DNA of 64,000 nt from Sphaerolaimus hirsutus (taxonomy: Eukaryota > Nematoda > Chromadorea > Monhysterida > Sphaerolaimidae): assembly GCA_964036195.1 (NCBI GenBank), contig OZ038452.1, positions 17,664,704-17,728,703 of the forward strand, read 5' to 3'. The position numbers and the translations under genes were made by a program. This document shows positions 36,601 to 39,600 of this stretch, in pieces. Below the pieces are notes generated by a model. It saw nothing but the letters and a program-made list of their open reading frames with translations. It did no database searches and was not told the DNA's origin. The stretch's first letter is position 1, and the number at the start of each line of letters is the position of its first letter.

Positions 36601-39600
36601 ACAAGGACTTTTAATTTTTTGAAAAAGCACCAACAGAAGTGTATTCATCACTTGTGTTGTAACCACACCAAAAAATGGCTGCACACTTCACCACAACTAT
36701 ATTTTGTGTGGTTTTTTGAAAATTCTCATTTATATTTTCCGGGAAAAAATTGGCAAAAAATCTTCATAAATCTGTAGCAGCAGAACAGGGGGGTGCCATG
36801 GGGTGCCACTTGGCATATATGTAGGCAAATGTTGTGGGCACCCCCACAACAAATGGCAGCCATATTGGGCTGCACGTTTTCCTGTGAGATTGTTATGAAA
36901 AATGAGGTACCTGATTTCTCATTTAAATGTGCCACCAGTTTATGTGGCAAAAGTGTGCACAGAACGAACCCTGGTCCCAGCCGCAGTTCTGCCTGGCGCA
37001 CTCGCCGTAGAACGGGGGGTAGCCGCACAGCATGATGTAGATGATCACGCCCAGCGACCACATGTCGCAGCGCTTGTCGTAGCGCAGAGACTCGCCCACG
37101 AACGCGTCGACCACCTGCGACACAATGTACATAGGTTTGGAAAAAATATAAATGTTAAAAAAATCAGTTGAAAAAATCAAGAGCCATCCCTAAATGTAGC
37201 CAGCTCTCAGGCGGAGAAATCAGACAGTCTCTGCGCAACTGTGAGTACCCACCTCCGGAGCCATGAACTCAGCACTACCAACTGGACTCTGCAGCTCCGG
37301 GGTCTTCACAAGACTAGCCGGTAGCTGGTCCAGTTTCGACGCCAAGTCCAAGTCGCACAGCTTCACGGGCGACACCCGGTCGGGGTAAACGCACAGCACG
37401 TTCTCCGGCTTGACGTCCCTGTGCGCGATGCCCTGCCCGTGGAGAAACTTGAGCGCGTTGGCGATGTTCCTGCGGGGCAGTCCCGGACACTGTGAAGAGT
37501 CCTGTAAAATGTAAAATGTCACGCAAAGTGTCTAAAGTCGCGTAAAATGCCCTGCACGTTTGCCATTTTGCAGGGCATTTTACGTGACTTTAGACACTTT
37601 GCGTGACATTTGACACTTTACAGGGCACTTAATAGGATCCGGGACTGGCACCTGGTGACCAGTGCAGCCTCCTGCTCGGTGAAGTAGATCCGGCGCTGCA
37701 CGTGCGCCAGCAGCGGCCCGCCGCGCATCTTCTCGAAGATCAGGTAGAAGCGGTCGGACTCTTCGAAGAATTCCACCAGGTGCACGATGTTCGGGTGGCC
37801 GGCGCACGCGTTGAACGTTTCGATTTCTGCGAACGGAACAATGATTAAACTATCACCTTTCACCTGAACAACTATCACCTGATTAAATACTGCCTTGAGC
37901 CACTTTTTCTATTTCTTAGGCGCTTTCTATGCGCATGCGGTCACCAGTTTGACAGAAATTTCGGAAACTGATAAATCTTTTTTTACGCATTCGAGTTTTC
38001 CAGAAAGAATATTATTCTTTCGCCTTCAACAATAGTTGACGGACTCCTCATTCCGGTGAACTCAAGGCGCCCAAAACTGCTTTTATCAGTTTGCGAAATT
38101 TCGACCGCAAACTGGTCATTCTGCCTCAATACATTTATGCACCTCATGAGAGCCTATCTCAGCCCGATACAATTCAACATCCATACATGCAAGCTCCCAC
38201 AAGACATCAAACAACAAACACCGCCGCTAGTAGTAACCTTTCATGACGCGCGAGCGCTGGTATCCGTCGCGCTTCTCGATGATCTTGACGGCGTACTCGG
38301 CGCCGGACACGTTGGACACGCACGCGCGCACCGACGCGTACGAGCCCTGGCCCAGCACGTCCGCCTTCAGCGTGTACAGGTCTGCGAGGGGGGGGGGGAT
38401 GCGATGGGATGGGTCGAGTTAGGATTTGGGTTTATATTTGCGTTCAGTGTATTTTGATCGTTTTATTTGGCAGTTTTTAGTTGGAAACTGATATTGTTGC
38501 GATGGGCCAGAGCACACACTAGTTGACATCGCAAATAAATGTCAACTGAATGTCAACTAAATAGCACAAAAAAAATTCTTTGAAGCATCACACCAGAGTT
38601 GTTAAAATTACTGAACTTTTCAAAGTACAACTTTGATTTTTTACTTTTTACTCACTCATGAGTACAGAAAATAATACTTTTAAAAGTAACATACTTTTTA
38701 ACCTGTACTCATGTGAGTAAATTACTTTTTTCCAGGAAAATATAAAGAATATTTCTCTTAAGTAGATTTTTCTTTTATAGAATATGTAAAAGTGGGTACT
38801 TTTTTCGTGGAAAATGTCAAAGCTGCTACTGGATGGGTAGCATCTGCGCCACCCCCATCATAAAACGTTTAACTCATATTATGGTCACTGAAGAAATGGG
38901 CATTTGCGACAGTTATTTGGCACACTCCTCAATAATGTAACGTGCAAACTAGGGAAAATCACAAGTAATTCTGTACATCATTTACATTATTCATTGACCC
39001 CGCTATATGCATGTTAATGGCCATACTTTGGTGCCCCACTTCGGTACCACGCAATATGTATATTTCATGAGCATGTCAGGCGCCCCAAGCATGGCACACA
39101 AATCATACAGCTCCCAGACGAACGCAAGCGCACTGTGCACACAGCGATGTCGACTAGAGCTTGGGACCGCAGCCCAGATCCAGTCCCGACATGTACTCAT
39201 ACAAATTAGCAGCAATAAAGGCGCATGAACGGACTATTGCTGAAAAGAATGATTAACTTCAATGGATTTTGAAAAGCGCCTGACACGGCGTGAACAGCAA
39301 TTTTTCTGAGCCTAGATTCGGGTACCGGCTGACCCGCCGACCCAAAATCCATAAAATTTTAGTACCCGAACCAGCTTTAACACATTCATGTGCCATTTAT
39401 CACTTTCATTCGCCCTTCAAAGTTCGCCCTTTACAGTCCCCCTACTCAGCACGGTGCCGCGCTGAATAGGCAGCGCCGATGCCATAAATAGCACCCCAAC
39501 GAAGTCCGGTCATCAAAGAGTCGACGGTACATCCATTAGCACCGCAAAAACGGCCGGTGCTAACGCACGGCAAACACCCGGTTGCGGGCGACACGTGTCC

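Follow-up and report, generated by a model that had tools for sequence, protein, structure and literature searches.

An inserted palindrome in an MNK-like kinase gene

We analyzed a stretch of 64,000 nucleotides (the window), which covers positions 17664704-17728703 of contig C3 in a genome assembly of 348.5 Mb (G000). On the minus strand of the window, an MNK-like kinase gene is broken by 182 bases, GTGCCAGTCCC...GGGACTGCCCCGCAG (Table 1). Only 4 of these 182 bases lie outside a foldback element: the acceptor-side CAG and one extra base in front of it. The foldback has the 178 bp given in the original prediction, and its stem covers nearly the whole insert. Folded as minus-strand RNA, the insert reaches -118.3 kcal/mol, compared to -47.6 kcal/mol (standard deviation 3.9) in 200 shuffled sequences (z = -18). 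A far larger foldback lies elsewhere in the window (23859-25300); its 515-nt arms are 93% complementary, are separated by 48 nt and are nested in more inverted repeats.

When the insert is removed, the exons read ...LVT-R-NIANAL..., in the register of MNK relatives, as had been predicted. Over 79 residues the joined peptide and MNK2 align gaplessly (E = 1e-32, PDB search), and a Pkinase match (Pfam) spans the join. Both exons beside the insert are open and conserved. Judged from its sequence, the insert looks like a U2-type intron: it starts with GT and ends with AG (GTGCC...GCAG), its net effect on length is zero and the reading frame is kept. The predicted intron is in phase 2, at an arginine.

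Table 1. Features of the MNK-like gene and of the element family in the window. Flanking triplets are given outside the slashes.
Feature	Positions	Strand	Description and basis
Predicted intron of the MNK gene	37470..37651	-	182 bp, GTGCC...CCCCGCAG; gapless MNK2 alignment and Pkinase match across the join after excision
MITE, putative introner copy	37474..37651	-	178 bp, GTGCCAGTCCCGG...CCGGGACTGCCCC
Foldback arms of the MITE	37478..37556 and 37569..37647		79 nt each, 89% complementary
Target duplication, 5' copy CAG (end of upstream exon)	37652..37654	-	CWG duplications of the family
Target duplication, 3' copy CAG (predicted splice acceptor)	37470..37472	-	Sequence at the insertion
Extra base between element end CCCC and acceptor-side CAG	37473	-	
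Upstream MNK exon, ends in (R)	37652..37826	-	Limits judged by eye; MNK2 homology
Downstream MNK exon, starts in (R)	37253..37469	-	Limits judged by eye; MNK2 homology
Second full copy of the family	46029..46220	-	CAG/GTGCC...CCCC/CAG
More diverged copy	9115..9318	+	CTG/GTGCC...CCCC/CAG
More diverged copy	3188..3379	+	CTG/GTGGC...CCCC/CTG
Partial copy	near 47527..47594		

A large family of elements with two different ends

The genome search proposed with the original prediction shows that the element belongs to a family with thousands of members. Across the 348-Mb genome we count 2437 exact matches to its 15-base donor end (GTGCCAGTCCCRGAC) and one match to the reversed control. In a search with the element, the full-length matches listed are mostly 82-87% identical (40 scored among 2940 first-look candidates; other-strand matches at the same places score lower). 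Three further full-length copies and a partial one lie in the window itself. On contig C9, eight copies flanked by CAG on the donor side and CTG on the acceptor side (CAG/CTG; we use this order throughout) are found within 0.8 Mb (24.96-25.76 Mb). Six of them have a length of 207 with the duplications and two a length of 188, which suggests a local segmental duplication.

A consensus was built from 68 of 88 copies, those 140-205 bp long. It is a 189-bp palindrome whose arms mismatch only at bases 2 and 4. One end is GTGCC and the other is GGGGC, which reads ...GCCCC on the 3' side, and it is the mismatches that create the GT. Among copies with exact ends and a length of about 172-202 bp, 395 have asymmetric ends and are flanked by CWG on either side, compared to 42 with GGGGC at both ends and 8 with GTGCC at both ends; the CWG condition was imposed on the 395 only. 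The two ends look specialized as donor and acceptor, in line with the earlier suggestion that the element was shaped for splicing. Yet the asymmetry is family-wide and the family is also present outside exons (for most of the 395 copies a location in an exon is not established). Hence the asymmetry may serve transposition or the transposase rather than splicing.

The family inserts at CWG. The triplet before the donor end is CAG in 1132 copies and CTG in 947, so that 2079 of 2437 copies (85%) carry CWG there. The original prediction did not foresee the CTG copies (39%), some of which lie in exons and offer CTG as the acceptor. In 309 of the 395 asymmetric copies the CWG is the same on both sides. 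We also assembled a set of 90 loci, 83 of which could be bounded (L009, L031, L032, L038, L064, L081 and L083 have no clear second end) and 68 of which were kept after repeat removal. The duplication pairs in this set are CAG/CAG (26), CTG/CTG (14), CTG/CAG (7), CAG/CTG (1) and others (20). Near-identical flanks persist among these 68 and among the 88 copies (L002/L004, L056/L058, L095/L097, L108/L110).

These comparisons change the reading of the target site. At the MNK locus CAGG is visible on both sides, and a 4-bp CAGG duplication had been proposed. Family counts and alignments led us to drop it for a 3-bp duplication, here CAG, followed on the donor side by the element's own first base, G. 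The acceptor CAG does come from the duplication and the donor T from the element, as originally stated, but the donor G is supplied by the element too.

A possible source of the transposase

The CWG duplications, together with a GGG end, are consistent with NuwaI transposons of the PHIS group. In the part of the PHIS survey drawn on here (PMC4482050), NuwaI elements have CWG duplications and terminal inverted repeats that usually begin with GGG, and they are confined to animals. The family shares the CWG duplication. Of its ends, one is GGGGC and the other GTGCC; in 42 copies both are GGGGC. It differs from the NuwaI elements described there in being a short MITE with one terminal repeat that reads GTG.

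The genome contains candidates for the enzyme. Matches to PF13359, the DDE domain that such transposases contain, number at least 163 (150 of 306 candidates scored); among 14 control genomes only one, a Bacteroides, has a match. More than 30 of the matches listed share an identical score of 58.8 bits. Most of those listed take up about 633 bases to cover 147 profile positions, mostly with four in-frame TGA codons (for example, C3:24387703-24388335), as if each carried an insert or intron of about 192 bases, the length of an introner. We infer that these transposases mobilize the MITE, which would then have a NuwaI-like source.

Insertions in conserved coding exons

We joined the flanks of each copy without the element and without the extra copy of the duplication, and searched the resulting peptides against Pfam and PDB. 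Homology crosses the join at nine insertions besides MNK, giving ten insertions in nine genes. Judged from the sequence, sister copies lie within conserved coding exons of genes other than MNK.

Pfam domains cross the join in eight open reading frames (ORFs): Pkinase at L001 (the MNK copy) and L018, PAS at L010, adh_short at L015, GF_recep_IV at L026, Oscp1 at L052 and L053, and PAN at L080. The L018 match lies below the curated cut-off (19.5 compared to 31.7 bits) and is supported by a gapless PDB alignment to cGMP kinase 1. At L010, the alignment to NPAS3 (PDB) crosses the join without interruption; its gap lies further along. At L015, a member of the SDR family, the small gaps in the alignment to protochlorophyllide reductase (PDB) lie at a distance from the join. 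The L026 and L080 matches differ in length from the matched stretch of the profile, so they contain gaps somewhere. Two further insertions are recognized by gapless PDB alignments, L106 (ALKBH7) and L008 (alanine aminotransferase 2, ALT2). In the OSCP1 gene (contig C1, about 3.592-3.593 Mb) three copies lie within about 1.1 kb: two coding copies, L053 with CAG and L052 with CTG, about 800 bp apart, and an adjacent third copy, L054, in opposite orientation. Another copy, L021, sits inside an apparent peptide precursor made of tandem KRHSGYGNKYSSWL-type repeats.

Where homology could tell, sister copies in conserved coding exons were oriented with GTGCC leading on the gene strand. All eight Pfam hits are in the 40 sense ORFs (GTGCC first), compared to none in 30 antisense ORFs (Fisher p = 0.009; 7 of 40 and p = 0.017 without L018). 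These ORFs were not selected blind. Sense ORFs were chosen partly because they were recognized (39 of the 56 with a coding score above 5, plus L008 with 3.5), antisense ORFs mostly by coding score and with loci confirmed as sense omitted (30 of 45). The codon model behind the scores was trained on sense ORFs; a model not trained in this way separated the strands poorly. Of the first 30 sense ORFs, eight are the hits above, 20 have no match, and two (L079 with E = 0.009 and L086 with E = 0.007) have weak matches that fall short of the curated cut-off, the one in L086 beginning at the join; ten further sense ORFs gave no Pfam match. When sense ORFs are ranked by score alone, the top 30 contain five of the eight hits. 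PDB searches covered six sense peptides and no antisense peptide.

CAG and CTG acceptors

Half of the ten insertions have GT-AG boundaries at the element ends (one extra base away in MNK): MNK, L053, L026, L080 and L008. Their duplications are CAG/CAG (L053, L080 and, with the extra base, MNK), CTG/CAG (L026) and AAG/CAG (L008). The other five (L010, L015, L018, L052 and L106) are CTG/CTG and do not allow exact removal by GT-AG splicing. The sample was partly picked for CTG or CAG, so these proportions do not measure frequency. Still, the CTG/CTG copies mean that a simple scheme of GT-AG splicing at the element ends is not followed by every exonic copy.

Alternative GT-AG pairs exist on paper. 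The scan took in donors up to 30 nt from the left end and, around the right end, acceptors between 45 nt before it and 33 nt after it, keeping the six smallest changes per copy. In-frame, stop-free pairs are present in all five homology-tested CTG/CTG copies, but each alters the protein, and each does so differently: by +3 or -1 residues at L010, by +11 at L015, by +2 or +3 at L052 (via an upstream donor), by -1 or +1 at L106 and by 0 to -7 at L018, where the near-zero alternatives replace residues of the exon by residues of the element. The same scan found no in-frame GT-AG pair for L034, a copy whose coding status lacks homology support.

There is another way in which the five CTG insertions could be removed. 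All seven CTG/CTG copies examined contain an AG whose last base is 19 nt ahead of the last base of the CTG. The five may be GT-TG introns that are aided by this upstream AG. A related arrangement is known from human introns. In the portion of Szafranski 2007 (PMC2374985) considered here, TG acceptors accompany an AG within 28 nt, a limit that includes the 19 nt of the seven copies. Those tandems are alternative sites, whereas here TG would be the productive site. The same portion of that study describes TG as never the sole acceptor, and mutants in which AG was changed to TG did not use the TG. This result counts against a productive TG site in our family.

The family as a whole has an excess of AG on the acceptor side. 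Over all matching copies, exonic or not, the acceptor side has AG in 252 and TG in 143 (p = 5e-8). The donor side of the same copies has an excess of CAG as well (226 compared to 169 CTG, p = 0.005), and part of the acceptor excess may thus reflect target preference. Unequal duplications are skewed in the same direction: CTG/CAG occurs 56 times and CAG/CTG 30 times (p = 0.007), or 53 and 22 times when evident duplicates are collapsed by eye (p = 4e-4). The AG excess and the unequal duplications fit selection for an AG acceptor and repair of CTG by T-to-A mutation, without proving either. The CTG/CTG copies L015, L052, L010 and L018 diverge from the consensus by 4.8%, 6.2%, 6.5% and 10.1%, and the CAG/CAG copies L053, L080 and MNK by 8.5%, 9.9% and 11.9%. 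With L018 excepted, these CTG/CTG copies diverge less than the CAG/CAG copies, so some of them may be younger.

Origin of the MNK intron

To explain the 182 bases in the MNK gene, we propose that the intron was made by the insertion of a nonautonomous DNA transposon, that is, by an introner. We consider this origin very probable. A near-perfectly palindromic MITE, probably mobilized by a NuwaI-like (PHIS, Harbinger-related) transposase, would insert at CWG and duplicate it. The GTGCC end would supply the donor, with a GT that is wholly derived from the element. The opposite end would contribute a brief run of pyrimidines, CCCC, followed by the duplicated CAG as acceptor. Once the stretch from GTGCC to CCCC(G)CAG is spliced out, one CAG would be left, hence the reading frame and the protein would not change. 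The MNK copy is presumably younger than the other introns of the gene.

This scheme can be extended to both targets. Insertion at CAG would give a canonical GT-AG intron. Insertion at CTG would give a GT-TG intron, in which the element's AG 19 nt upstream defines the site and the TG is chosen in the second step of splicing; a later T-to-A mutation would turn CTG into CAG. We regard this extension as a tentative proposal that may well be wrong. If it is true, then canonical introns can be seen arising step by step from a transposon within one genome.

Alternatively, the hairpin and not the splice dinucleotides could direct excision from the mRNA. SOS splicing removes DNA transposons from transcripts in worms and human cells. 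For the hairpin introners of Amoebophrya, excision guided by the hairpin is proposed in PMC7789003. Such a mechanism would account for a stem that spans nearly the entire insert and for CTG/CTG copies in conserved exons (L010, L015, L018, L052 and L106). However, orientation should not matter to it, yet none of the 30 antisense ORFs shows an insertion in a recognizable domain, and the acceptor side is biased toward AG. Because of the orientation bias, we keep excision of the SOS type or of another orientation-blind kind only as an alternative, and an improbable one.

It is still harder to credit that the MNK copy is an unspliced, disruptive or polymorphic transposon and that the gene is broken in the assembly. 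The exonic CTG/CTG copies, which lack exact GT-AG removal, could be such alleles, but the bias toward GTGCC-first insertions and the acceptor AG excess point to selection on splicing, and the MNK exons beside the insert are open and conserved. Equally remote is the idea that an older intron was later filled or replaced by the MITE: CAG/G is the ordinary exon consensus at splice sites, so the CAGG repeat alone proves little, but almost nothing of the intron lies outside the element, sister copies are bounded alike in unrelated genes and the duplication is the family-wide CWG.

Comparison with known introners

With the insertion of a transposon as the preferred origin of the MNK intron, the family is, as far as sequence can tell, an introner family, and the genome seems to have been gaining introns from a transposon. 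Introners rank among the leading explanations for bursts of intron gain, yet the 2022 survey detected them in no more than two groups of animals (Gozashti et al. 2022, PMC9860276). The present family adds a CWG-targeting MITE whose donor and acceptor ends differ at two positions of a palindrome, with thousands of copies, some of them in strongly conserved genes. Insertions at both CAG and CTG offer a natural test of how new introns become accepted by the spliceosome, and of whether TG acceptors, or removal directed by the hairpin, carry an insertion through until it acquires an AG. Among titles and the opening lines of abstracts we found no introner family derived from PHIS or Harbinger elements; one of the papers covered in this way, PMC8476143, mentions Harbinger once.

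The Amoebophrya introner elements resemble our family in several ways, as far as the portion of PMC7789003 used here describes them. They are hairpin introns that carry inverted repeats, their exon borders are overlapped by short direct repeats, and their ends are often not GT-AG. In our family, by contrast, the GT donor is kept and the acceptor side varies. The host differs as well: it encodes animal-type genes (MNK, NPAS-like, cGMP kinase) and so is not a dinoflagellate, unlike Amoebophrya. The host may not be an arthropod either: at least eleven contigs are longer than 23 Mb, and a search for the arthropod cuticle family PF00379 gave 0 matches, although it gave none in the control genomes either and so does not show that the family is absent. 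We did not take up the name Lk6 for the kinase gene.

The introners of the 2022 survey (PMC9860276) are close relatives in design. They are nonautonomous, have terminal inverted repeats and target site duplications, coincide with intron boundaries and leave the length of the mRNA unchanged, and all of this is mirrored here at the level of predicted introns. The Chrysochromulina introners come closest, because they carry the 5' splice site and take the 3' splice site from the duplication, as we propose for our family. What sets our family apart from these introners are its 3-bp CWG duplications, a palindrome over its full length and its many CTG acceptor sides.
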